Of a DNA stretch of 64,000 bases, positions 43,410-64,000 are shown in pieces. The stretch covers positions 1 through 64,000 of the forward strand of contig PBNP01000024.1 in the NCBI GenBank assembly GCA_002723295.1, given 5' to 3'. Below the pieces are notes generated by a model. It was given only the letters and a program-made list of their open reading frames with translations. It searched no databases and had not been told where the DNA came from. A program made the translations under genes and the position numbers. Numbering within the stretch: position 1 is the stretch's first letter; each line of letters opens with the position of its first letter. Source of the DNA: Flavobacteriaceae bacterium (GTDB lineage Bacteria; Bacteroidota; Bacteroidia; Flavobacteriales; Flavobacteriaceae).

Positions 43410-44753
43410 CTACCTATTTTGACTTACAAATAATGAAAAAATACCCCCGGTAATTAATAGTACTCCTGCTAACCTTATAATATTAATCGGGTTTTGACCT
43501 AGGAGGTCATAGACAAAAAACTGAACACTAAAAATTTGAATAATCATTGGGATTACAATAAACATATTAAAAATACCCATATAAACCCCTGTTTTGTCTT
43601 TAGGTATGGATTCAGCTAACATTTGATATGGCATTGCCATCATACTTGCCCATGTTATTCCCATTCCAAAAGAAAACAAATAAATCTCTTCAATTCTAAA
43701 ATTCCCTAAAGAAAACAAAATATCATTATAATTTAAATATGGCATAATTAATAAACTTATACCTCCAATTAATAAACTAATAAAGTGCAAATACTTTGGT
43801 CCAAATTTTCTTGCAATAGGAATTAAAGCAAACGCTATTGAAAAACAAATTATATTATAAGTTCCATTAATATTGCCCGTTAAAAGTTGAGCTTGATTAA
43901 AAAAGGTAGAGCTTTCATCAAGAGTATTAAAAAGTGATAAAGATAAAGCAGAGGTTAAGTACTGCCAATAACAAAACATTGCAAACCATGGAAAGAACAT
44001 AACAGGAATAAGCTGAATCATAGGCTTAGGCATTTTCTTAATTGCATGGACTATTTCATTAGTTATTCTTTTAATTAAACTCCCTTTGGATTTTTGTAAT
44101 TTGATTTGAGCAATTTCTTCTTCTGTTGGGGGATATTCAGAAGTTGTAAGAACCGTAATTAATATTGTAATAATTGATGCCGCCGCACCAATACTAAAAG
44201 CCCAATATGTATAAACAGGTATACCATTTTCCATCTTATCTGTTAAAGCTAATATTCCAAAAGCAACCAAAATGGCAGGGGTGAAATTTGCCAATGTAGT
44301 TCCTAATCCAGTAAAGAAACTTTGCATTAAAAACCCTAATGAATATTGTTTTTCATTTAATTTATCAGAAATAAATGCACGATAAGGCTCTAGGGCAATA
44401 TTGTTCGCTGCATCTAAAATCCAAAGTAACCCTGCTGCCATCCATATTGAACTTGAATAAGGCATTGCAATAAGTGCTATACTTGCAATTATTGCACCTA
44501 TTAAAAAGAATGGTTTTCTCCTTCCAAATTTTGGATGCCAAGTTCCATCAGAGATTGCGCCAACAATTGGTTGAACTATAAGTCCAGTAACCGGTCCTGC
44601 TAACCAAAGAATTGGGAGTTCTCCTTCAGATGCGCCAAGGTATCTGTATATAGCACTCATATTACTTTGTTGCAATCCAAAACTAAACTGGACCCCAAAG
44701 AATCCAAAATTCATTGTAAGAATTTGCCAAAAATTTAACCGCTTTTTTACCAT
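43410..44753 (-). CDS. SLC45/GPH-like MFS transporter
   Basis: PVTGLIVQPIVGAISDGTWHPKFGRRKPFFLIGAI; 12 TM pattern. Confidence 0.88.
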   Translation of the reverse strand: MVKKRLNFWQILTMNFGFFGVQFSFGLQQSNMSAIYRYLGASEGELPILWLAGPVTGLIVQPIVGAISDGTWHPKFGRRKPFFLIGAIIASIALIAMPYSSSIWMAAGLLWILDAANNIALEPYRAFISDKLNEKQYSLGFLMQSFFTGLGTTLANFTPAILVAFGILALTDKMENGIPVYTYWAFSIGAAASIITILITVLTTSEYPPTEEEIAQIKLQKSKGSLIKRITNEIVHAIKKMPKPMIQLIPVMFFPWFAMFCYWQYLTSALSLSLFNTLDESSTFFNQAQLLTGNINGTYNIICFSIAFALIPIARKFGPKYLHFISLLIGGISLLIMPYLNYNDILFSLGNFRIEEIYLFSFGMGITWASMMAMPYQMLAESIPKDKTGVYMGIFNMFIVIPMIIQIFSVQFFVYDLLGQNPINIIRLAGVLLITGGIFSLFVSQNR

Positions 44754-44762
44754 TATTAAAGC

Positions 44763-46124
44763 CTATTTATTAGATGAAATGGCAAGTTCTGATTTATTTG
44801 ATTTTGTAGATATTTTATTAACAATATATTTGCCAATTTTATCTCCCTGTAAAACTCCCTCTTCAATTGCCATCATGTAATGAATTCCTCCATACAATCT
44901 AGAAATAGCTGCTTCTTCTGAAGCTCCAATAAAAGAATCAAATTTACGGTCAGAAAGTCCATATTTTCTTTCTGTTGTATCAATAAAAGCAAATTTTTCA
45001 CCATAAATTGAAGTCAAGGTTATTGCTGCTGCTCTTGAAATTACAGAATGTCCACTTGTATATTCGGGAAATGGTGGTGTTTGAAGTTTTGGGAGCCATT
45101 CTTCATCATAGTATTTATTTATAATGGTTTCAGGTCTAACAACTATTGTCTTCCATTTTTCATCCCAACAGCTAATAAAAGCATCAAAAAGGGCAATTGA
45201 TACATTAGCATATGCGTTTATTGTCATTGCAAAATCACTTTTTGTCTGCCGTGTTGCAACACCAGTTATTCCAATCCAATGACCTCCAGGAGTTATTTTT
45301 TTTGTAGCAAACATTGCATGTCCTCTATGATGAGTTACATAGGGATTGCAATCCCAAAATTTTGCCATTTCTAATTGTTCATCAGTAAGTGAGTTCCCAT
45401 ATTGATAAACTTCCTTAAGTTGCATCTGAAATGGACTTCCTTCTTTTAAATTAAATTCTAAAGGGGGTTTAGCAGGAAACATATCTGCAGACTCTAAAAC
45501 AAGAGTTCTTATTTTGTTCCAATGTGGCTCAATACCATCCATATAATCAGGAGGAGTTGGTTTCCAATATTTTTCTGGCTCTAAAATTGTGTACTTAGGA
45601 AAAGTACGTGTTTGGTCATAATTATCATTTTTTGCCCATTCAATAATATGATTTGCTACAGTCTTTGCATATTGTCTTGAAGCCTTTCTAACTTTAGATG
45701 GAACATTAAAATTATCTAACTTTTCTTCAAAGTAAGCTTCAAATTCATCATACTTGTCTTCAGAAAAAATCAAAGTGCGTCCAACTATATTAAAAGAATA
45801 AATTGCAGCTAAGTTTAAATTAATATTTTCATTATAAGGTTTTTTTATTTGATTAAGATCCTTTAATTGACCACTTAATGACAAATATTCTAAAGGGTCT
45901 GAAAAACGAATTATTTCGTATGCAGCAATGGAGGGATAAACATAAACCCTAGAGGCTACAGGTGGAGAAAAAATGTCATATACAACTATATCTGTTAAAT
46001 TTTGCATTGACATTTGGAAAAGCTCAGGATTTTCAATTTTTTCAATATAATCATCATTTACAGAACATCCAATACAAATTAAAAATGGGAAGAAAAAAAA
46101 TTTTAAAAGTGTATTCTTTTTCAT
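44763..46124 (-). CDS. Vanadium-dependent haloperoxidase/PAP2-superfamily lipoprotein
   Basis: Lipobox CIGC; KWKTIVVRP (KX6RP), EYTSGHS, SRLYGGIH (SRX5H). Confidence 0.85.
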   Translation of the reverse strand: MKKNTLLKFFFFPFLICIGCSVNDDYIEKIENPELFQMSMQNLTDIVVYDIFSPPVASRVYVYPSIAAYEIIRFSDPLEYLSLSGQLKDLNQIKKPYNENINLNLAAIYSFNIVGRTLIFSEDKYDEFEAYFEEKLDNFNVPSKVRKASRQYAKTVANHIIEWAKNDNYDQTRTFPKYTILEPEKYWKPTPPDYMDGIEPHWNKIRTLVLESADMFPAKPPLEFNLKEGSPFQMQLKEVYQYGNSLTDEQLEMAKFWDCNPYVTHHRGHAMFATKKITPGGHWIGITGVATRQTKSDFAMTINAYANVSIALFDAFISCWDEKWKTIVVRPETIINKYYDEEWLPKLQTPPFPEYTSGHSVISRAAAITLTSIYGEKFAFIDTTERKYGLSDRKFDSFIGASEEAAISRLYGGIHYMMAIEEGVLQGDKIGKYIVNKISTKSNKSELAISSNK

Positions 46125-46130
46125 TATTAA

Positions 46131-49100
46131 TTACTTTGACAAAATATATATATAGTCATTATTTGTAATAAAATATAACTTATTTTTATATTCAACTAGT
46201 CTTCTAACATTAAGTTTAGCGGGTAAAGGTAAGAACTCTTTGTGAACTATTTTATTTTCTTGAAAATTTTTAAAATTTATTATTCCTCCTGGATTTGCTG
46301 TTTGACTACCTAATTCTGTTACAAATTTTTCTGAATTGCCAACATAAAATAATTCTTTAGTTTCACTATTCCAATGAAAATCTTGAATAATACTCCATTG
46401 AGCTTCTTGAGGCAAAGGATATGATGAAAAATCAGTTTCATTATTAATAAAAAGCATAGATCTTAAATCTGTAATCTTTTTAACTTCTAGCACTTTACTT
46501 TCTTTAAAACCAGTTAAATCAAATATGTTTTTAACCTTGGCAAATTTTTTGTATTTACTAAATTTTTTCTTAATCATAGGCATTTGAGATCCTAAATTAT
46601 CTTTAGAATTAAACGGTCTATAATTTCCAAAATAATTATAAAAAATTATTGGATCTGATTGTTCGTTATTATCAAAATCATCAATGTATAAATAAACTGG
46701 CTTCTTGTTTTCTGGTTGCCATTTAAAGTTTTGCCCTGCATTTCCTGCTAAAATATCTAACCTACCATCATTATTTATATCAGCTAATTCAATTGAATTC
46801 CATAACCCTGATATATTTTCAGCCCCTTTTAACTTGGAGGCAACAAATTTTCCTTCATCATTTTGATTAATTACAATTATAGAAGTCTAATCACCTACAA
46901 TTATCAATTCTTTTTGGGTGTCTGAATCAATATTTCCCCATTTAGCATCTGTAATCATTCCCAAACGAGCTTGAACAATTGGCTCAAAATTTCCATCCTT
47001 ATTATTTCTTATTATAAAACTATTTGGGCTCAATCCATAACCGCCAGGAATGGATCTACTTCCTACAAAAAGATCATCAAATCCATCATTATCAATATCA
47101 TGAGCAGCTACAACACTACCATTTGTAGAAGGCAACGACACATCTAGTCTTGAAAAGTTGCCTTTCCCATCATTTATATAAATTCTATCCATCATATATT
47201 CTTCGTCATTTTCCTTATAATCATTTCCTCCACTTACTACATAAATATCTGGATCACCATCATTATCAGCATCAAAAGATGTTGCAGAAACATCTTCAAA
47301 TTTTTGATCAATTCTAAAATCTTTAATGTCACCTAAGTCAAATCCATTATTTTCATTTCCAAACAAAATTTGAGATGGTCTATATCTTGCTCCTCCTATA
47401 AAAATGTCTAGAAAATTATCATTATTGAAGTCTTCTAAAATAAAAGCTGGTCCTTCCGAGGATAATAATTCTGGGACTAATTTTTCTCTTTCATAATCAT
47501 AATATTTATTTTCTTCATGCTTATAAGGTAAAACTGATAATTTATAATCATTACTCTCCTTCTTAGAAATTTTACTTTCTTTTGGATTAGCAATAGTTCT
47601 AATTATTTTAATTCTTTTTTCAAAGGGAGGTTTAACTGTTTGATTAATCCCATCAGGCCATCTAACCAATATAGAATCAACGCTATTTTGACCTAAACCA
47701 AAATGTAGTTTAGAGGTTGACGAAGATAAAAACCCTCTTGTCGTAATTGCTTCTTGAACTGAAATCTCTCCATTATTTTTAAATACTAAAACCCTAGAAC
47801 CTTTTATAATGCTAGCATTTAATTCAACTGTTAAGCTGTTATTTTCTTTTGAAGTTTTGTTTTCTAAAATAGTAGCTAAAGCATTTATGTTATTTAGAAT
47901 TAAATCTAAATCTCCATCATTATCTAAATCACTATATGCCGATCCATTAGTGTATGATGGTTGCCCAATGAAAGATTCCTGAATTGATCCAAAATCAAGT
48001 TTTCCATTATTTTTAAAAAGCATATTTGAAATTTTCAGTTCTGGCATTTGTTTAATTAATTCTTTTTTCATCTCGTTTTGTTTAGTTAAAACAAAACTGC
48101 TATAGTTACTATTACTTAAATAATTTATATAGTCCAAGTCATTTGGTCTTTTAGCAATTCCATTAGAAATAAAAATATCATTCTTGCCATCATTATCAAA
48201 ATCTTGTAGAAGAACAGACCAACTCCAGTCTGTGGCATAAGTTTTTGTCAATAATCCAACTTCAGAATAATCACCATAAGCTCTTTTTAAATAAAGATTA
48301 TTTCTAGAATATTGAGGCTCAAATCCAAAATCACTCTTTATTCGTGTTAGTTTATCTGAGTCCTCTCCACCTGATTTTAAAGCTATTTCAGAATCAAATG
48401 GCATCATGTCCGTTGTAAAAATATCTAAGTTTCCATCATTATTTAAATCTGCTATATCAACCCCCATTGTGAATCTTGAACAATATGTAAAATATTCACT
48501 AAAGGATTCTGTGAATGTTTTGTCTTTATTGTTTATATATAAATAATCATTTTCATGAAAATCATTCCCAACATAAATGTCCAACCAACCATCATTATTT
48601 ATATCGGTAGTTGTTATTGCAAGACCATACCCTAATGGGCTATTGTATATTCCAGATTTCTCAGTTACCTCAACAAACTTGTTTATTCCTTCATTTAATA
48701 AATTCTCATAAAACCTATCACCTGAAATTGAGTCCTTTTCTATACGTTTTTTAATTGTACCATAACTGCGAACTGAATGAACTGAATGATTCATTAAATA
48801 CATATCTAAATCTCCATCATTATCATAATCAAGAAAAGTTGATTGAGTAGAAAATCCTGAAAAATCTAATCCATACTCTTTAGACATTTCTGTAAATGTT
48901 AAATCTCCATTATTAATAAATAGTAAGTTATTAGTCGTTTTGTTGTAAAAATCTTCAACTGCTCCTTTCATGGGAAGTTTGCTTATATAAATATCGAGGT
49001 GTCCATCATTATTTACATCTTCCATAGAAACTCCATTTGACCAAGAAGGTGATAAATCTAAATTTGCCTCCTCTGTAATATCTCTAAATCTAAAATCTCC

Positions 49101-49379
49101 CATATTTAAATATAGACGATCAGCTTTTTGATTGGCTGTAAAAAATATATCATCTAGTCCATCATTATTAATATCCCCTACAGCTACTCCTCCTCCATTA
49201 TAATAGTATAGGTACTCAATTATATTTAAATAAGGTTTATATTCCAATTCATTAATAAAATCAATTCCTATTAAATTATTGTCTAAAGCTTCAAATTTTA
49301 TTTTATGTGAGTCCTTTTTGTGTGGACTTTCACACATTATGAAAAAGAATACAATTAATATAAAGGGTAATCTATTCAT
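46131..49379 (-). pseudogene. FG-GAP/VCBS + ASPIC/UnbV (CRTAC1-like) lipoprotein, paralog C, interrupted by in-frame TAG at 46887-46889
   Basis: ORFs 46887..49379 (830 aa) and 46131..46583 lie in the same frame; translation between them is continuous and aligns with the C-termini of both neighbouring paralogs. Confidence 0.9.
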
Positions 49380-49383
49380 CCAA

Positions 49384-52300
49384 TTATTCTTTAATGATAA
49401 AATGAGCTAGTGTGTCTTTATTTCTAGCTACCCAGATATTTTTTTTATCTACAACAATTGACCTAACTTCTCCTTTTAAGTTAAATCCTTTCCCATTGGG
49501 ATAAAATTTTAACTCATTTGGTGTGTTTTCCAAATAAATTCCATAACTAGCATCATATATTCCAAATTCAGGTTTAACATTATATAAATTACCTCCCATT
49601 AATAAATCTAAGTCTCCATCTTTATCTGCATCTAGATGAGCTATAGAGTATATGGGGCTAAACTGAACTTGTATAGGTAATTTAATTTGGCTAAAATTAA
49701 AATTTCCTTCATTTTTTAAAGCAATAGTTGATAAGTAATTGACCTGACATTTATAGGAGTTGTTTATTGATTCAATTGAGAATATTGAATTTAAATCGGC
49801 ATTTTTAAAAGATTTAAAGTTTGGAAATTTTTTCTTTAAACTTTTCATTTGATCAATTAAATTATGTCTCAAAGCATAAGGATATTCTTTACCATTATCA
49901 GCAGTAAAAAACAAAACTCCTTCGCCTCTACCATTATTGTCAAAATCATTGTAATAACAAGTTATAGGCATGCTTTCTGATGCTTTAAATCTACTGTTTG
50001 TTCCGTGATTACCAATAACTATGTCCATATCCTTATCACCATCTATATCAAATAGATCTATAACATTCCACCAGCCATACTTATCGTTCCATTTATTATC
50101 GATTAATTTAAATTCACCATTTTTGTTTTCAAAAAAATTAACACCCATAAACTCTCCAACAATTAACAGATCTGGGTCTTTATCATTATCGAAATCCATA
50201 AAAACTGCATCAGTTATCATACCAATATCTATTAATTCAGGTGATAATATATGTGTCATATCTGCAAAATTTCCAAATCCATCATTTACCAGAAGATATC
50301 CTGATCCAGGTAGTCCATATTTTCCAATTTTTGATCTTTCTCCAACAAACAAATCTATATCTCCATCGGAATCAATATCAGAAAAAGCAACTGATTCTGA
50401 ACTAATTTTAGAGTCCTTAGAAGGTAATAATTGATTGCTCTTGGTAAAAATTCCAGTACCATCATTAATAAGTAAAACATCATATAAAGACAAAGTATAT
50501 ATTGAGTTTTCTACGCCTCCAGAAGTAAAATAAATATCTAAATCACCATCATTGTCTGCATCAAAAATTGCACTTTCAATATGTTCAATATCTTTTATTG
50601 ATTCTAAAAGCTTTTCGTTTTTCTTATCACTGGTATATCCAAAATCATTTGAAAATAAAATTTGCGATGGAATCCCTTTTGCACCTGGAAAAACTATATC
50701 ATTTTTTCCATCTGAATTTAAATCAGCCAAACTAATCTTTGGCCCTTGTGTACTTAACATATGATAATTCAATCGCTCTCTATGAAAATCTACAAAAATA
50801 TTTTCCTTGTGAATTGGATAATTTTTATTTTCAACTTTTTCAAAAAGCAAGATTTCAGAATATATATTCTCTTCTACATTTTTTTTTGAATCTGAAACAT
50901 TAAAAACATGTTTTTTATTTACTGTTAAATCTTTAAATACAGTAACTTCTCCTAAAGGCCAAGTTATTCTTAAGTCTACACTTTCTTCATTCCCAACACC
51001 AATTGTTGGAAGTAAATCCATACTTGATTGAAATCCTCTAACAGGTTGAAGCTCATGGAACAGTTTCATATTAGATGTAGTTATTTCAATCTTAGCTCCT
51101 ATTGCATTAGGATTTTGTTCTGAACCCTTTAAAGAAATTTTTATGTAATTATTCCCCAAAATTTCTGATTTATTTTTAAAAACAAACAAAGGCATATTTA
51201 CATTATTAACTACCAAATCGAGATCACCATCATTGTCTAAATCTCCATATGCCGAGCCATTAGAAAAGCTTGGTATATTTAATCCTGATTGATCATAATT
51301 CTTAAATCCTAAACCACCAATATTCTTATATGAATGATTAGGAACCATATTAGATGGAATTATATCAATAAGTCTTTTATAATCTACCTGATTATTCTTA
51401 ACTATTGACTTAACAACTTCTTCACTTGCTACATATTGAAGATAATCTTGATCTGTTAAATCTTGATAAATTCCATTGGCTATAAATAGGTCCTTATAGC
51501 CATCATTATCCATATCAAAAAATAATGCTCCCCAACTCCAATCTGAAGCCTCTACACCAGCCCAACGACCAATCTCACTAAATGAGTTATTTCCATTGTT
51601 AAGGTGTAACATGTTTCTAGTAAATTGATGGTGATATCCATTTTTTACAACATACTGATATTTATTCCAGTCTTCAAAAGTTGTAACTGATTTAAGTCTT
51701 TGATAATCAGAAGGCAACATTTCTGTAACAAAAATGTCATTCAATCCATCATTATTCAAATCAGCCATATCTGCTCCCATTGAAGCCCCACTAATTGAAT
51801 GCATTTGATCTGTTAATACTTCTTTAAAAGTTCCATCTTTTTGATTAATGTAAAGATAATCTCTTTCAAAAAAGTCATTAGAAACAAATATGTCTTCCCA
51901 GTTATCGCCATCTACATCTCCAACACTTACCCCTAATCCAAACCCTATTACACTCCCGTAAATCCCAGCTTTTTGACTAATATCAAAGAACTTACCATTT
52001 CTATTCTCCATTAATTTATCTCCCCCTAATGAATCTCGTTTTGGGCGCTCATTTCTTCTAAGATCAAAACTTCCAATTGCTTGATAGGAATTGTTTAAAA
52101 GATATGCATCTAAATCTCCATCTTTGTCATAATCAAAAAAAGTTACATGAGTAGAAAAGCCTTTGTCAGCTAAACCATAAGTTTCTGCCCTCTCCGTGAA
52201 TGTTAAGTCTCCATTATTTATGAACAATTCATTTTGTTTATTATCTCCTTTAACATCTCCAGAATTACAAACGTATATATCTAAAAAACCATCAGCATTA

Positions 52301-52665
52301 ATATCAACCATAGTAACACCAGTAGCCCAAGCTTTTTCTCCACTAACGCCAGCTTTTATAGTAATATCTTGAAAAGTAAAATTTCCAAGATTTAGATATA
52401 GCTTATTATGTTTTTGATTAGCAGTTAAATAGATATCTAGAAGTCCATCATTATTTATATCTCCCAAGGACACACCTCCTCCATTGTAATAATTCCTATA
52501 CTTGTATACATTAAAATCATTATTAAAGGTTAAGTCATTGGAAAATTTGATTCCAATCTTTTCTAAATCTTGAAGCTCAAAAAGTGTAGTTGATTCTTTT
52601 TCAGTACAACTAAAAAATATAAAAATACTGAATGAAACTAAGAGACATTGTTTGATAAAATTCAT
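49384..52665 (-). CDS. FG-GAP/VCBS repeat + ASPIC/UnbV (CRTAC1-like) lipoprotein, paralog B
   Basis: Lipobox FFSC; repeated DxNxDGxxDI motifs; VRGFQSSMDLLPTIGVG UnbV motif. Confidence 0.92.
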   Translation of the reverse strand: MNFIKQCLLVSFSIFIFFSCTEKESTTLFELQDLEKIGIKFSNDLTFNNDFNVYKYRNYYNGGGVSLGDINNDGLLDIYLTANQKHNKLYLNLGNFTFQDITIKAGVSGEKAWATGVTMVDINADGFLDIYVCNSGDVKGDNKQNELFINNGDLTFTERAETYGLADKGFSTHVTFFDYDKDGDLDAYLLNNSYQAIGSFDLRRNERPKRDSLGGDKLMENRNGKFFDISQKAGIYGSVIGFGLGVSVGDVDGDNWEDIFVSNDFFERDYLYINQKDGTFKEVLTDQMHSISGASMGADMADLNNDGLNDIFVTEMLPSDYQRLKSVTTFEDWNKYQYVVKNGYHHQFTRNMLHLNNGNNSFSEIGRWAGVEASDWSWGALFFDMDNDGYKDLFIANGIYQDLTDQDYLQYVASEEVVKSIVKNNQVDYKRLIDIIPSNMVPNHSYKNIGGLGFKNYDQSGLNIPSFSNGSAYGDLDNDGDLDLVVNNVNMPLFVFKNKSEILGNNYIKISLKGSEQNPNAIGAKIEITTSNMKLFHELQPVRGFQSSMDLLPTIGVGNEESVDLRITWPLGEVTVFKDLTVNKKHVFNVSDSKKNVEENIYSEILLFEKVENKNYPIHKENIFVDFHRERLNYHMLSTQGPKISLADLNSDGKNDIVFPGAKGIPSQILFSNDFGYTSDKKNEKLLESIKDIEHIESAIFDADNDGDLDIYFTSGGVENSIYTLSLYDVLLINDGTGIFTKSNQLLPSKDSKISSESVAFSDIDSDGDIDLFVGERSKIGKYGLPGSGYLLVNDGFGNFADMTHILSPELIDIGMITDAVFMDFDNDKDPDLLIVGEFMGVNFFENKNGEFKLIDNKWNDKYGWWNVIDLFDIDGDKDMDIVIGNHGTNSRFKASESMPITCYYNDFDNNGRGEGVLFFTADNGKEYPYALRHNLIDQMKSLKKKFPNFKSFKNADLNSIFSIESINNSYKCQVNYLSTIALKNEGNFNFSQIKLPIQVQFSPIYSIAHLDADKDGDLDLLMGGNLYNVKPEFGIYDASYGIYLENTPNELKFYPNGKGFNLKGEVRSIVVDKKNIWVARNKDTLAHFIIKE

Positions 52666-53264
52666 TGCTTTTTAAACTTCGAATTTAAATCCTCTATTAA
52701 TATCTCAACATATCTGATACTATAAACATATGCAGTAATTTGACGATTTCCATCAATTTTAACCATAACTGGAAGTCCATTAATTTCTTTATTGATTTCA
52801 AAAAATGAATTACCAGGAAATAATTGGTCCATAATATTCATTCCTTCTTCCAACAAAGAGTCTTTTTGTAGTTCTTTTACCCAAGGAGACCATCCAAGAT
52901 ATGATATTCTCATTTTCATTCCAGTTAAAATTCTTCTGTCATCAAAAATTCCATAAAATAAAAGTTCCATTCTGCTTTTTTTGGGATTGTATATTGGTGA
53001 TATAGAATCAAGAACGTGACGAACAAATTGATTCCCTGAGCCCTGATTTACAAGTTTTTTCCTGTTTAATTCCCAACAGTCCTTATAAAATTTTTGTTGA
53101 GATTGACCTATTTCCATACCAAAAATTAAATCTGTATAATTTTTATTTAATGACATCTCTTTTCTTACAGTTCTATCATATTCTGATAAACATGAAGACA
53201 AAAAAATGAAAATAAATAAGTAAAGAGATGTTTTAATTGATTTTATGAAATTTGACTGAATCAT
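52662..53264 (-). CDS. Lipoprotein of unknown function
   Basis: Lipobox LSSC; overlaps both flanking CRTAC1-like genes. Confidence 0.7.
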   Translation of the reverse strand: MIQSNFIKSIKTSLYLFIFIFLSSCLSEYDRTVRKEMSLNKNYTDLIFGMEIGQSQQKFYKDCWELNRKKLVNQGSGNQFVRHVLDSISPIYNPKKSRMELLFYGIFDDRRILTGMKMRISYLGWSPWVKELQKDSLLEEGMNIMDQLFPGNSFFEINKEINGLPVMVKIDGNRQITAYVYSIRYVEILIEDLNSKFKKQ

Positions 53265-56200
53265 TATTTATAGAAAAAATTAAATATTTTTTGTTTTCTT
53301 TTCTTAGAAACTCCATTTTACGAATTTGACCTTTAATCCCTAGACTTTTAGGAATAGTATTAAAAAATTTATTTTCGTTAAAACTAATAGGCAGCATCCA
53401 ACCTTTTGATGCATCATAACTTCCAAATTGAGGTTTGACCAAAAATTGATTTCCGCCCAAATATAAGGACTTTTGATTGGTTTTAAGATCATCTTTAATT
53501 AGTATACTATATATTGGACTATACTGAATTTCATCAGGAAGAATATGTTGTATAAATTTATTTTCCTCAGAGACAAATAAACTTGTTTTTAATTCATGTA
53601 ATTCAAAAATTGAAGATTCGATAAGCTGAGATTTATCAATTATTTCATCTATTGATTTTTTAGCATAATCTTTGTAAAAGACAATATTTTTTTTGAGATA
53701 AGGCAATTGATCAATTAACTCGTCCTTATCCAATGCAGGATAGAATTTGCCGTCAATCTTATAGCACAAAATTTGTTCCTCACTTCCATTTTTATCAAAA
53801 TCGTTAAGATACATTCTCATGTTTTCTTTAAGAAAAGAATTTGTTCCATGATTACCTGCAATAAAATCAATTATCCCGTCATTATTTGCGTCTACCAACT
53901 CAATAGTATTCCAAAGCCCAGAAGTCTTTTCAAGGCCATAATCTTTTGTTTTGTTTTCAAAAACGCCTTTATTATTAATTAAAATAGTAATTGGCATCCA
54001 TTCCCCAACTATGATTAAATCAGGCCATTGATCATTATTTATATCATGAAACTTGGCGTCTGTAATCATTCCTATGTTTTGCAACTCATTTTGAAAAATA
54101 TTTTTAAAAGTATTATTCCCTTTGTTTAACATTATAAACCCATCTCCTTTTTTACCATAAGTTTTAAGATTATATCTTTCTCCTATAAAAATATCATTGA
54201 ATCCGTCTAAGTTTATGTCTGCAACAGCAATTGCATTACTTGAAAAATTTCTTGGAAACTCCAATCCTTGAGGTTGTTTTTTAAAATTTCCATTTCCTTC
54301 ATTAATATAATATCTATCATTTAGCGAAAAACTAATTTCAGAAAAGGCCTTACCGCCACTTGCAACAATTAAATCTAAATCACCATCTTGATCACCATCA
54401 AAAAAAAGAGCATTGGTGTCTTCTGAGGCCATATCTTTATCAAATGGGGTTTCTTGCCTTTGATAATCTCCTTTTTTCGTAGAAACAAATAAAACTCCCT
54501 TTTGGTTTTTTCCGCCTCCTATATATACATCATCAATTTGATCATTGTTTAAATCTGCTACTGCCATAGCAGGGCCTTCATTATGATTCATTTGGGTTAA
54601 AAGCCTTTCACGGTTAAATTCAATAAACTCATTTTCAATATGTTTGAATTCAAATAGTTTTGGGTTTTTAACTACTGATATATTACTTGCTTTATTATCT
54701 ATTTTTATTCCAAAAGTTTTATTTAAGTTAATTAGCTTATTAGTAACTAAATTTTGATATAAGTGTTTGTCTCCATTGGGCCAAATAACAATTATGCTGT
54801 CTATCTGCTTCTTGTCTCCAACTCCAAAGTGTATGCGATGACTTATAGATGATTGAAACCCTCTTGAAGGAAATACCTCACTCATTGATTTCAAATCTTT
54901 ATCGTAAAGAATGATTTTTGAACCAATGGCTTTAGTGTTTAATTTATCTCCATTTAATGATAGCTGTATACTTCTATTTTTTAATGTATCTACATTATTT
55001 CTATATATAAAGACAGGCATATTTACATTATTAACAACTAAATCCATATCCCCATCATTATCTAAATCTGCATAAGAATTTCCATTGCTAAAACTTGGTT
55101 TATCTAGACCCCATTTAGTTGTCATATTTTGGAAATTAAATCCACCATTATTTTTGTATGCAAAATTGGGAACAGCAGCAGAAGGCATTATATCAATTAA
55201 ACTTTTTATTACCTTTTTCTTTTGCTCCATTAATATCCTCACCTGTTCTTCATTTGCCATATAGGCTAAATAATCTCTGTCTAATAAGTCTTTGTTTATT
55301 CCATTTGCAATAAAAATATCTCTTAACCCATCGTTATCCATATCAAATAGAAGAGAAGCCCAGCTCCATTCAGTAGCTGCTACTCCACTTTTTCTTCCAA
55401 TTTCAAAAAAACCAGCATTACCCATATTTCTCTGTAAAACATTTCGAGGATATTGCCTAGAATAACCATTGGATTCCATTAATTTAAATTTATCCCATGA
55501 ATCATATATTGCCTTTGTTTTCTTTCTCTCCAAAGATGCTGGCAACATTTCTGTAACTAGTAAATCAGAATTTAAATCATTGTCTAAATCTGCAGTGTCT
55601 GCCCCCATTGAGCCCATAGACAAGGCTTCAAAATATTTATCAGAAGCTTCAATGAAAGTTCCTGATTTAGAATTTATATACAAATAATCTTTTTCAAAAA
55701 AATCATTTGAAATAAACAAATCCGGCCATAGATCATTGTTAAAATCACTAACTGTTATTCCTAACCCAAAGCCTATTGCGCTATTAAACATTCCAACTTT
55801 TTCTGTTACATCTTCAAAATATCCATTTACATTTTCAAGAAATTTATTCCCATTATTATTTGGGTCAGGAATATTTCGTTGGTCTTTTATAATGTCATAT
55901 CCTCCAACTGAGCGAATTGAATTATTAAGAATATATACATCCAAATCACCATCTTTATCATAATCTAAAAAAGCGGCATGAACGGATAGTCCTTTAATAT
56001 CAAGTCCATATAATTTAGAACTTTCTTTAAAGGTTAAATCACCCTGATTTATAAAAAGCTCATTATGTCTATTTTGACCTTCAGGTTTTCCTGACTTACA
56101 TACATAAATATCTAATAAGCCATCTCCATTAATATCTACAAATGTAGCACCTGTAGACCAAATATTTGGACATGCTACTCCAGCTTTATCTGTTATGTCC

Positions 56201-56478
56201 TCGAACTCCCAGTTACCTTTGTTTAGATATAATTTGTTGTCTACAATATTACCTGTTAAATAAATATCAATTAAATTATCATTATTAATATCTCCTAGCG
56301 CAACTCCAGCCCCATTATAAAAATTTCTATATGTATAAGGATTAAACTCTTCAGTATACCTTAATGTGTTTTCAAATGAAATTCCAGTTGATTCTCCCAT
56401 TAATTCAAAAAGTTTCGGGTTATTATTTCTACAACCTAAAATCATCAAAACAGAAAAAGATAAAACTTTAAATTTCAT
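53233..56478 (-). CDS. FG-GAP/VCBS repeat + ASPIC/UnbV (CRTAC1-like) lipoprotein, paralog A
   Basis: Lipobox ILGC; DxNxDG repeats; SRGFQSSISHRIHFGVG...IVIWPNGD UnbV motif. Confidence 0.92.
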   Translation of the reverse strand: MKFKVLSFSVLMILGCRNNNPKLFELMGESTGISFENTLRYTEEFNPYTYRNFYNGAGVALGDINNDNLIDIYLTGNIVDNKLYLNKGNWEFEDITDKAGVACPNIWSTGATFVDINGDGLLDIYVCKSGKPEGQNRHNELFINQGDLTFKESSKLYGLDIKGLSVHAAFLDYDKDGDLDVYILNNSIRSVGGYDIIKDQRNIPDPNNNGNKFLENVNGYFEDVTEKVGMFNSAIGFGLGITVSDFNNDLWPDLFISNDFFEKDYLYINSKSGTFIEASDKYFEALSMGSMGADTADLDNDLNSDLLVTEMLPASLERKKTKAIYDSWDKFKLMESNGYSRQYPRNVLQRNMGNAGFFEIGRKSGVAATEWSWASLLFDMDNDGLRDIFIANGINKDLLDRDYLAYMANEEQVRILMEQKKKVIKSLIDIMPSAAVPNFAYKNNGGFNFQNMTTKWGLDKPSFSNGNSYADLDNDGDMDLVVNNVNMPVFIYRNNVDTLKNRSIQLSLNGDKLNTKAIGSKIILYDKDLKSMSEVFPSRGFQSSISHRIHFGVGDKKQIDSIIVIWPNGDKHLYQNLVTNKLINLNKTFGIKIDNKASNISVVKNPKLFEFKHIENEFIEFNRERLLTQMNHNEGPAMAVADLNNDQIDDVYIGGGKNQKGVLFVSTKKGDYQRQETPFDKDMASEDTNALFFDGDQDGDLDLIVASGGKAFSEISFSLNDRYYINEGNGNFKKQPQGLEFPRNFSSNAIAVADINLDGFNDIFIGERYNLKTYGKKGDGFIMLNKGNNTFKNIFQNELQNIGMITDAKFHDINNDQWPDLIIVGEWMPITILINNKGVFENKTKDYGLEKTSGLWNTIELVDANNDGIIDFIAGNHGTNSFLKENMRMYLNDFDKNGSEEQILCYKIDGKFYPALDKDELIDQLPYLKKNIVFYKDYAKKSIDEIIDKSQLIESSIFELHELKTSLFVSEENKFIQHILPDEIQYSPIYSILIKDDLKTNQKSLYLGGNQFLVKPQFGSYDASKGWMLPISFNENKFFNTIPKSLGIKGQIRKMEFLRKENKKYLIFSINNDSVKFHKIN

Positions 56479-56555: not shown

Positions 56556-58178
56556 TTAGTACCCTGTGTTTTGAGTATATCCGGTAGAGGATTGAAGTAT
56601 ATCAAACGGAATCGGGTAAAGAGCTTTGTGAGCAGGAGAAGCTGATTTTTCCCACCAAGTACCACTCGAATATATTCCCCAACGTATTAAATCAGTACGA
56701 CGTGATGATTCTTGGAACATCTCACGTCCACGTTCTGCCAAAAACTCATCAGATGTCATAGAGCTATAAGTACCAACACCAGCACGAGTACGTAATTGAT
56801 TAACTACACTAAGAGCAGTTGCATCACTCCAGTTATTCTGGCGATATCTAGCCTCTGCATACATTAACATAACATCTCCATATCTTACAATTGGGAAGTC
56901 ATTATTTTGGTCAGGGCGTCCAAATTGTTGGAAACTAAACTTTCCAAGACGTGCTCCGCCTTCACGGAACGCATTGGGCTCTAACTCATTAATAAATGGT
57001 GTGTAATTTAACACAATTCCTCCTGGATCATCAGCAGCAAAATCATTCAAAGCACTTCCGCCATAATCTTTTTGAGGTCCCTGAATAAAATTATTTGCTC
57101 TACGTAGATCGTTAGTATCATATGAATTATAGAATTCTTCTAATGTAGCATAACCATTCCATGGCTGAGCTTCAAAATTCCAAGTAAGCTGACTAGAATA
57201 GTGTAAAGTCATCTTTGCAAAATTCATACCTCCAGCAGTTGCCTCATCATAATTCACAGAGAATATATGCTCTATATTATTATCATTATTAGGCGCAAAA
57301 ACAGCAGCATAACCTTCTAGATTATCTGGGTCCTCAGCTACTGCAGGACGTTTAGCAAGGTTTGAAACGCTACAACCCACACCACAAAGCTGATACTGTC
57401 CAGAATCCATGATAATTTGAGCTGCATATTCAGCTTTTTGATATATAGCCATATCCTCTGCACCCAAGTAAGTCTTGTGGTTTAGATAAAGCTTCGTCAA
57501 AAATCCTAAAGCAGCGTATCGATTTACACGATAAACGCTAGATGTCGCATTAAGTCCACTACCATCAAATGTAGTAGTTGCTGTTATCCCAGAAGTACCA
57601 AGAGCAGTTAATAATTCAGACTCAATAAAAGCGTATAATTCCGCTTGTGAAGCCTGAGCACCTGTAGCAGACTCTGTAACAATCTTAACTCTTCCATAAA
57701 GATCTAGAAGTCTCCAATAAAAATAAGCGCGTAAAGCTCTAAGTTGCATAGTTTCCTCTGCAGTAAGATTTTTTGTGGCATCTCCCAAATCGTTATTAAT
57801 TTGCTGAATGGCGTTATATTGACCATTCCAAGTATTACCAATAATACCATTAGTAGGGTCATATGTGTGACGGTGCATTTGAACTAACACTCCGCCATCA
57901 TACCAGTCACCACCTTTGGCAGCAATACACATTTCATCAGAAGGCAAACCTTGGATACTAAAGTAGCCAAAGTGATTAGCCGTACCTGAACCACGCAATC
58001 CGGCATAAGATCCAGCAAGCGCGTCACCACCTCCACCAGCAGCACCACCAACAGCAGGGGCTGTAACATCAAAAGTCTGATTAAGCTCTCCGACTAATTC
58101 TTCTTCTAAGTCAGTACAAGAAAAAATTAGCGCTGAAACCGATGTTGCTAGGAGCAATTTGTTTAAAATATTTTTCAT
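56556..58178 (-). CDS. susD: SusD/RagB family nutrient-binding lipoprotein
   Basis: Lipobox IFSC; YFYWRLLDLYGRV, YGDVMLMYAEARYRQN, ERGREMFQESSRRTDLIRWG. Confidence 0.94.
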   Translation of the reverse strand: MKNILNKLLLATSVSALIFSCTDLEEELVGELNQTFDVTAPAVGGAAGGGGDALAGSYAGLRGSGTANHFGYFSIQGLPSDEMCIAAKGGDWYDGGVLVQMHRHTYDPTNGIIGNTWNGQYNAIQQINNDLGDATKNLTAEETMQLRALRAYFYWRLLDLYGRVKIVTESATGAQASQAELYAFIESELLTALGTSGITATTTFDGSGLNATSSVYRVNRYAALGFLTKLYLNHKTYLGAEDMAIYQKAEYAAQIIMDSGQYQLCGVGCSVSNLAKRPAVAEDPDNLEGYAAVFAPNNDNNIEHIFSVNYDEATAGGMNFAKMTLHYSSQLTWNFEAQPWNGYATLEEFYNSYDTNDLRRANNFIQGPQKDYGGSALNDFAADDPGGIVLNYTPFINELEPNAFREGGARLGKFSFQQFGRPDQNNDFPIVRYGDVMLMYAEARYRQNNWSDATALSVVNQLRTRAGVGTYSSMTSDEFLAERGREMFQESSRRTDLIRWGIYSSGTWWEKSASPAHKALYPIPFDILQSSTGYTQNTGY

Positions 58179-58197
58179 AATTTCTTAAGTTTTAAAA

Positions 58198-61176
58198 TTA
58201 AAATTTAATATTCACGCCTAGAGTAAACGACCTAGAAGCATAGTAACTTCTACGACGATCAACCCCAAGAGATAAAACATCATATAATCCTCCATTATCC
58301 TCACCAATGTCAACCAATGATGGCTCTGGATCTAGACCTGTGTAACTTGTAAACACTAATGGATTTTGTGCATTAAGTGAAATCTGAAGTCCATCAATAC
58401 CATTTAGGTTACTTACATCCATATCACGAGTTACTGTTAAGTTGTCTAACTTAAAGAAGTCCGCTTTTTCAACATACAATGAGCTAAATCTTGCTGTAGT
58501 CAATCCAGCAGGGGCCAAAGATGTATTAACAAAGTTGTATGAACTCTGTGTTGAGATTCTAGGCTCATAGAAAGCTCGGAATGTGTTTACTAAACTATGA
58601 CCGAAAGCACCTCTAAAAAATGCATTTACTGACCATTTACCAAACGTCATTTGATTAGTCCAACCTACTTCTAAATCAGGAGTACCATTACCAAGAACAG
58701 TAAAATCAACATCTTCATTTAAAGCTTGATCTTGACCAACAGTTATAACTCCATCTCCATTTATATCTTCAAATTGAGGATCTCCATTAGCATCAACACC
58801 GTTAAAGATTGGGCCAAATATCGTACCAATCTCAGTTCCTACCTTAACTCTTATCGTTGCTGTACTATTTTGTCCAGGAGCACCTAAATTTGCTCTCATC
58901 TCAGCATCTCTAATATACTCATCTAGAGTAGTTTCATAGCTAGATAAAACAATACCGGTATTATAATTATCAGAAACTTGATAGTTTAAGGCCATTTCAA
59001 CACCGTTAGTTTTTAATTTACCAGCATTTTGGTACTGCGAACCTGATGGGTAATTGGCTGGGTCTACATCAACTTGTAAAATAAAGTCATTAATTTCTCT
59101 AGTGTAGATGTCTAAAGTTGCATCAAGCTTTCCTTTTCTCCATTCTATACCAAAATTAGTTTCTGCTTTTTCTTCCCATTTAAGATCTGGATTACCATCA
59201 CGAGCTGCATTTAGACCATCATTACCTCCATCAAGATTAAGTGTAGTAGATCCTCCAGCTTGTCCGCCACCATATTCAAAATCATATGCATTAGAAGACA
59301 ATCCATTAGGGCCAGGAAGTGCACCAGTTACACCGTAACCAACTCGCACTTTAAACTTATCAGCACCTAAATTTAAATACTTGTTTAAATCAACACCAAT
59401 TCCAGCAGCTGGAAAAACACCCCATTGATTCTCAGATCCTAATTTAGTTGATCCTTCACGACGAACAGAGGCATTAAGGAAAATTCCATTGTCAATAGTA
59501 TAGTTCATTCTACCAAAGAATGCTACAATTCTATCATCTGGAGATGCGTTAGAGTCAGCACCAATAAAACCAGCATTTAATAAATCCTGAGAGTGCTCAA
59601 CTGCATCAATAAAACTTACACCTGAATTTGATTCATCAGGAAAATCTCCCAAGGTAAATGAATGGTCATTAAAGTTTTGCTGTTGCCATGAATAACCAGC
59701 TGTAACAACTAATTCATTATCTCCTAATTGAGTGTTATAGCGCGCATACATCTCTGATAACTTAAAGCTATAAGTTTGATCATAAAAGTTTGCAGAACCA
59801 GAACGAATCGGAGAAGCAGCATTCCCACCACGAAGTAAAGTAGTAGGGTTATAAAGTTTATTAGAATATTTACTTACCTGACTTGCTGCATTTAAATTAA
59901 GGCTAAGATTGTCATTAAATGCATAAGCAGCATTTACACTGTAATTTAATTCAGTTTTATCTCCTTGATTAATTTGTTGTTTTGCAATAGAAACAGGGTT
60001 GTAACTATCAAATAATCCTAAGGTTTCAAAAAATCCACCATACTGTGGGCCATTAAAAACACCATCGTAATCTGCAGCATAAACTGGAGCAGTTGGGTTA
60101 TATAGCACAGCATATTTCATGGATTCCATGTCACCATTATTTTGTTTTCTACTTGTAAAAGCAGTATTCACCGTAATTGAAAGTTTATCATTTAGTGCTT
60201 TAGTAGAAAAATTCAAACGAGTATTGAACTGCGAAAAATCTGAACTTATAAGTATTCCTTGTATATCTCTAAAGTTAGCAGCAATACGATAACTGGTATT
60301 ACCTGAACCTCCAGATGCAGAAATATTATGAATTCGAGAAACCGCTTGACGAGTTACCTCTTCAGCCCAATTAGTAGCTGAACCTAAATCAGTACCTCCT
60401 GCAGCAACAAATTCTGTTGGATTCATAACATCTACTGTATTAAATGCTTCTGAAACACCTAATTGTCCAGTATAGTTAAGAGTCATTTTTCCCTCAGAAC
60501 CTGTCTTTGTTGTTACTAAAATAACACCTGCAGATCCTCGTGAACCATAAATTGCAGAAGCAGAACCATCTTTAAGTACGTTAATAGTTTGAATATCAGC
60601 AGGGTCAACATTAGCTAAAGAAGCACCGATAACTCCATCGATAACGACTAAAGGCTGAACGTTTGCACCAACTGTTGAAATACCTCTCAGACGAATTACT
60701 GCTGCAGCGTTTGGATCACCACCCCGGTTATAAACCTGGAGTCCTGCGACCTTACCCTGTAAAAGTTGTGAAGCATCAGAGATATTACCCTGATTGAAGT
60801 CTTCAGCATCAACTTTTACAACAGCTGCTGTAATTTCTTTTTCCCGTTGAGAACCATAACCTGTAACTACCACTTCCTCTAATTCACTATCCAGAGCCAG
60901 TGAGACATTTATTTGATCTTGATTTCCAACAGAAATTTCTTGAGTAGCAAATCCAACAAAGGAAATTACCAACACGTCAGATGATGAAGCCTGAATACTA
61001 TAGTTTCCATCAAAATCAGTACTAGTACCTACATCACTACCCTTTACTTGAACCGTTGCTCCTGGCAGCGGGCCATCTTCACTCGAAACAGTACCATTCA
61101 CTGTTTGAGCATACATCACTACACCAGCTAGTAAAAACAAGAGTGTAAGTAATGAAGTCTTGAAATTGTTTTTCAT
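58198..61176 (-). CDS. susC: SusC/RagA family TonB-dependent receptor
   Basis: Carboxypeptidase-like N-domain; plug VIRLRGISTVGANVQPLVVIDGV, VLKDGSASAIYGSRGSAGVILVTTK; C-terminal barrel. Confidence 0.96.
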   Translation of the reverse strand: MKNNFKTSLLTLLFLLAGVVMYAQTVNGTVSSEDGPLPGATVQVKGSDVGTSTDFDGNYSIQASSSDVLVISFVGFATQEISVGNQDQINVSLALDSELEEVVVTGYGSQREKEITAAVVKVDAEDFNQGNISDASQLLQGKVAGLQVYNRGGDPNAAAVIRLRGISTVGANVQPLVVIDGVIGASLANVDPADIQTINVLKDGSASAIYGSRGSAGVILVTTKTGSEGKMTLNYTGQLGVSEAFNTVDVMNPTEFVAAGGTDLGSATNWAEEVTRQAVSRIHNISASGGSGNTSYRIAANFRDIQGILISSDFSQFNTRLNFSTKALNDKLSITVNTAFTSRKQNNGDMESMKYAVLYNPTAPVYAADYDGVFNGPQYGGFFETLGLFDSYNPVSIAKQQINQGDKTELNYSVNAAYAFNDNLSLNLNAASQVSKYSNKLYNPTTLLRGGNAASPIRSGSANFYDQTYSFKLSEMYARYNTQLGDNELVVTAGYSWQQQNFNDHSFTLGDFPDESNSGVSFIDAVEHSQDLLNAGFIGADSNASPDDRIVAFFGRMNYTIDNGIFLNASVRREGSTKLGSENQWGVFPAAGIGVDLNKYLNLGADKFKVRVGYGVTGALPGPNGLSSNAYDFEYGGGQAGGSTTLNLDGGNDGLNAARDGNPDLKWEEKAETNFGIEWRKGKLDATLDIYTREINDFILQVDVDPANYPSGSQYQNAGKLKTNGVEMALNYQVSDNYNTGIVLSSYETTLDEYIRDAEMRANLGAPGQNSTATIRVKVGTEIGTIFGPIFNGVDANGDPQFEDINGDGVITVGQDQALNEDVDFTVLGNGTPDLEVGWTNQMTFGKWSVNAFFRGAFGHSLVNTFRAFYEPRISTQSSYNFVNTSLAPAGLTTARFSSLYVEKADFFKLDNLTVTRDMDVSNLNGIDGLQISLNAQNPLVFTSYTGLDPEPSLVDIGEDNGGLYDVLSLGVDRRRSYYASRSFTLGVNIKF

Positions 61177-63304: not shown

Positions 63305-64000
63305 CTAATGCTGTAATTCTTCTTCTCCCTTTTTAAGAGGAATATTCTGGGGAACAAAATCTTTATCATATCCGGGTTTTGAATAATCATATGCCCATCT
63401 ATGAACATGGGGTATTTCTCCATGCCAATTTCCATGGAAATGTTCAATTGGAGCTGTCCATTCTAATGTGTTTGAATTCCAGGGATTTTGAACTGTTTTT
63501 TTACCATAGAAAATACTATGAATAAAATTGTAAAGAAAAACCAATTGAGCTGCTCCTGCTATAAGTGCAAAAATTGTAATAATCACATTTATATCTGCTA
63601 AATCATCAAAAATGGGAAAAGCTGTGTTTGTATAATATCTTCTTGGCAAGCCAGCCATTCCAATAAAATGCATTGGAAAAAAAACTCCATATGCACAAAT
63701 TGCCGTAACCCAAAAATGAATATACCCAAGGTTTTTGTTCATCATACGCTTGAACATTTTTGGAAACCAATGATAAACACCAGCAAAAAGGCCATAAAGA
63801 GCAGAAATACCCATAACTAAATGGAAGTGAGCAACAACAAAATATGTGTCATGAACATTTATATCTAAAGTGCTATCTCCCAAAATAACACCAGTTAATC
63901 CTCCAGATATAAATGTCGAAACAAGTGCTATGGAAAAAAGCATTGCTGGATTTAATTGTAAATTTCCTTTCCAAAGTGTAGTAATATAATTAAATGCTTT
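63305..64000 (-). CDS. ctaD: Cytochrome c oxidase subunit I, C-terminal part, truncated by window edge
   Basis: DTYFVVAHFHLVMGISALYGLFAG; frame stays open upstream of the listed start to 64000 (KAFNYITTLWKGNLQLNPAM). Confidence 0.95.
   Translation of the reverse strand, partial: KAFNYITTLWKGNLQLNPAMLFSIALVSTFISGGLTGVILGDSTLDINVHDTYFVVAHFHLVMGISALYGLFAGVYHWFPKMFKRMMNKNLGYIHFWVTAICAYGVFFPMHFIGMAGLPRRYYTNTAFPIFDDLADINVIITIFALIAGAAQLVFLYNFIHSIFYGKKTVQNPWNSNTLEWTAPIEHFHGNWHGEIPHVHRWAYDYSKPGYDKDFVPQNIPLKKGEEELQH

Follow-up and report, generated by a model that had tools for sequence, protein, structure and literature searches.

What has become of a gene whose reading frame is broken by one amber codon and is otherwise whole? 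The genome of an uncultured Flavobacteriaceae bacterium (assembly GCA_002723295.1) raises this question on contig PBNP01000024.1, where the third of three tandem genes for CRTAC1-like proteins carries an in-frame TAG. The codon could reflect a recent nonsense mutation, a sequence error, a site of readthrough, or a new end of the protein. The window that we analyzed is the stretch of 64,000 nucleotides from position 1 to position 64,000 of the forward strand of this contig.

RESULTS

A single amber codon interrupts an open frame of 1,082 codons

The interrupted frame lies on the minus strand, from an ATG at 49379 to its natural end, a TAA at 46131, and, with TAG taken as Trp, is open over 1,082 codons before the TAA. 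The TAG (positions 46889-46887, minus strand) is in frame, is flanked by KELIIVGD before and TSIIVINQ after, and at codon 831 is the sole internal stop of the frame. The 830 codons upstream of it (46890-49379, minus strand) encode FG-GAP repeats, an UnbV_ASPIC domain (PF07593), and a probable lipoprotein signal, while the downstream part (46131-46886, minus strand) encodes the last FG-GAP repeat and a conserved C-terminal region. A sequence-only reading of this DNA had described an amber codon at a Trp position that splits the third CRTAC1-like gene and is followed by 251 codons without a further stop; its coordinates, translation, and codon count are correct, and the frame is open to the TAA.

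In the frame of the interrupted gene, 839 codons before the stop and 251 codons after it score as coding. Because the same frame scores as coding on both sides and there is no second such break in a 464-kb sample of the genome, the frame around the TAG is not a chance arrangement. Homology to same-genus orthologues also runs across the stop, over the full length, at about 74% identity. A single substitution, G to A on the coding strand (TGG to TAG), is sufficient for the break; a single step would turn any of 406 of the 1,082 codons into a stop, and therefore a nonsense hit needs no special cause.

The interrupted gene belongs to a conserved cluster

FG-GAP repeats and an UnbV_ASPIC domain, the domains underlying the name CRTAC1-like, are present in all three tandem genes, which are paralogue A (53233-56478), paralogue B (49384-52665), and the interrupted gene (46131-49379), all on the minus strand. 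Family membership is indicated by scores of 201.8 bits for the PF13517 repeats (gathering cutoff, 26.9) and 52.6 bits for PF07593 (gathering cutoff, 23.4); the NCBIfam search returned no family. Paralogues A and B are intact. The N terminus of the interrupted gene's product resembles a probable lipoprotein signal (FFIMCE), and by analogy with SusC/SusD systems the products of the tandem genes are probably surface lipoproteins that bind or handle a nutrient. A SusC/SusD-like pair (56556-61176, minus strand) lies upstream in the same cluster and consists of a SusD-like gene (56556-58178) and a TonB-dependent SusC-like gene (58198-61176). On the other side, a PAP2-superfamily gene (44763-46124, minus strand) starts 6 bases past the TAA of the interrupted gene, and the two are probably on one transcript.

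Same-genus genomes share the gene order SusC, SusD, three FG-GAP/UnbV genes, PAP2, malic enzyme/PTA, and RuvA, including a small gene that separates the first FG-GAP/UnbV gene from the second. Between paralogues A and B of the window, a 200-residue ORF (52662-53264, minus strand) overlaps the end of A; it occupies the same place in congeners at 60 to 65% identity and matches no Pfam or NCBIfam family. An MFS transporter gene (43410-44753, minus strand) sits between the PAP2 and malic enzyme genes. It is only about 46% identical to its counterparts in the congeners G003 and G005, and no match was found in its place in the congener G001, while the neighbors on either side are 72 to 85% identical; it thus marks a variable slot within the conserved neighborhood.

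Trp is the ancestral residue at codon 831

The residue aligned to codon 831 is Trp in 93 of 98 homologues, Phe in 3, and Tyr in 2, in a set of rows that includes some paralogues and some genomes present in two collections. The stop falls inside a conserved GDW motif, in which the Trp is replaced only by Tyr (L079 and L107) or Phe (e.g., L088) among the homologues read; an aromatic residue seems to be required there, judging from the alignment. All three same-genus orthologues (in G001, G003, and G005) carry TGG, are uninterrupted, are 73 to 76% identical to the interrupted gene, and lie in the same gene order. Four more distant orthologues carry TGG too. None of the other matches listed among 60 relatives has an internal stop, and none of the relatives compared has a stop at codon 831. 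Because the orthologues carry TGG and no listed relative has an internal stop, TAG is, on this comparison, the derived state; it is found in this genome only. The sequence-only reading had proposed a single recent TGG-to-TAG change in a gene that is otherwise intact, and both the TGG of the orthologues and the uninterrupted remainder bear it out.

The same comparison bears on two further ideas: that the 830-residue product is a functional form with a new C terminus, or that translation restarts in the tail to give a protein of its own. The upstream part retains most of the FG-GAP repeats and the UnbV_ASPIC domain, as a functional truncation would, but the stop cuts the conserved GDW motif and no relative is split here. 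The tail contains no ATG, GTG, or TTG before codon 933, which is more than 100 codons past the stop. We find either outcome extremely unlikely. A separate downstream gene was ruled out, there being no nearby start, and so was a natural gene end: no homologue in the comparison ends at codon 831, contrary to the possibility, raised in the sequence-only reading, that orthologues all end at this position.

Three of the six congeners (G002, G004, and G006) have only paralogues of about 36 to 37% identity and thus no close orthologue, and the interrupted gene looks like a dispensable, accessory one; these three genomes are 83 to 85% complete, and gaps in their assemblies could account for some of the absences. 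The interrupted gene still has two intact paralogues next to it.

The tail shows no detectable acceleration

With branch lengths estimated on a fixed tree, the window branch's share of change is 1.09 times as large in the tail as in the part before the stop (median of the bootstrap, with a 90% range of 0.76 to 1.75). The ratio of tail to upstream part is 1.33 for the tree as a whole, 1.50 for the window branch, and 1.70 for that of G001; the value of 1.50 is not exceptional, since the tail is faster throughout the family. In simulations of neutral drift, the share of runs in which the tail had gained no new stop fell from 61% at 0.01 substitutions per site to 13% at 0.05 and to 4% at 0.08, so that a second stop becomes likely by about 0.05 to 0.08 substitutions per site. 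Synonymous divergence from the congeners is greater than 1, near saturation. Because the tail shows no detectable acceleration, either the change is young relative to the split from the congeners or the real cell lacks it.

The latter alternative, a consensus or amplification error in which the real cell has TGG and an intact gene, is the main rival to a recent mutation. The lack of detectable decay in the tail is what it predicts, the assembly is an incomplete genome in 35 contigs, and C-to-T/G-to-A changes are a common type of artefact. Against it, the 464-kb sample yielded no interior in-frame stop besides codon 831, and stop-producing errors are thus not frequent, whereas a genuine nonsense change in one out of several hundred genes would be unremarkable. 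We regard such an error as unlikely, if still a serious contender.

UAG is an ordinary stop codon in this genome

The genome encodes RF1 (score above the curated cutoff), and TAG terminates 50 of the 348 long coding ORFs in the 464-kb sample. The scan of this sample covered in-frame stops and not frameshifts; interior stops were defined as those with long coding stretches before and after them and no start just downstream, and the resulting list was judged by eye. Its remaining candidates are adjacent genes that share a frame by chance or short antisense frames. RF1, the use of TAG as a stop, and the absence of other internal cases rule out codon reassignment and set this genome apart from those with genome-wide amber reassignment.

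The sequence-only reading had also listed amber suppression or readthrough, in which some full-length protein would be made. The tail stays open and constrained, as this idea would have it. Belinky et al. (PMC7918605) argued that many in-frame stops in bacteria are tolerated and reported that such stops with dN/dS below 1 are widespread in bacterial genes, and the case at hand resembles theirs in having an internal TAG flanked by conserved sequence. It differs in that they guarded against sequencing error by accepting only stops shared by two or more genomes, while here no relative has the stop. We detected no UAG-reading tRNA among 24 tRNAs in an assembly that is 68.8% complete, with about 31% of the genome missing. 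The tRNA-Trp (CCA) is ordinary, with a normal 5-bp anticodon stem as judged by eye. A suppressor tRNA motif search gave four matches, none of which ARAGORN called a suppressor tRNA, and six in the backwards control. No pyrrolysyl-tRNA synthetase (PylS) scored above the cutoff in the genome; the subthreshold matches are of a kind present in most control genomes, and pyrrolysine was rejected. The RNA 3' of the stop shows no unusual folding (z = -0.35) and matches no Rfam family, which rules out a readthrough hairpin and a known RNA element, respectively. Unlike conserved programmed readthrough, then, the stop is shared with no relative and has no stimulatory structure. With RF1 present and TAG used as a stop, suppression or readthrough found no support and is very unlikely. 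A species-specific switch with low-level readthrough, yielding mostly truncated surface lipoprotein and a little full-length protein, is hardly to be expected either.

DISCUSSION

We conclude that the interruption is probably a recent nonsense mutation (TGG to TAG), or a strain polymorphism, that inactivates an accessory gene. The single-base change would be real and recent and would have arisen in one lineage or strain. RF1 would end translation at codon 831, so that the third protein of the tandem FG-GAP/UnbV_ASPIC set would be cut to 830 residues and lack its last quarter. The gene may be entering pseudogene decay, or the TAG may be a loss-of-function allele in the population, and the PAP2 gene just downstream could be expressed more weakly. 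Two considerations count against a nonsense mutation: a consensus error predicts the same pattern, and the tail still looks constrained, as readthrough would also have it.

The locus shares with nonsense pseudogenes and segregating null alleles one stop-creating substitution, an accessory multicopy gene, and intact orthologues; we found no difference from them, in a comparison limited by the very recent age of the change and by a single genome. It likewise resembles the FG-GAP/UnbV_ASPIC (CRTAC1-like) proteins of SusC/SusD clusters in Flavobacteriaceae in its domains, its length of about 1,080 residues, and its tandem arrangement of three, except that one of the three is interrupted here. Nothing supports a novel reading of the genetic code, and the evidence points to an ordinary recent nonsense change or a sequence error. 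The observation is correct but ordinary.

The finding has little importance beyond annotation, where the locus is properly described as one interrupted gene (46131-49379, minus strand) and not as the two ORFs of a plain ORF list, one of 830 residues and a fragment of 150. If the stop is real, it would be a further case of loss in a redundant cluster of SusC/SusD-linked surface proteins.
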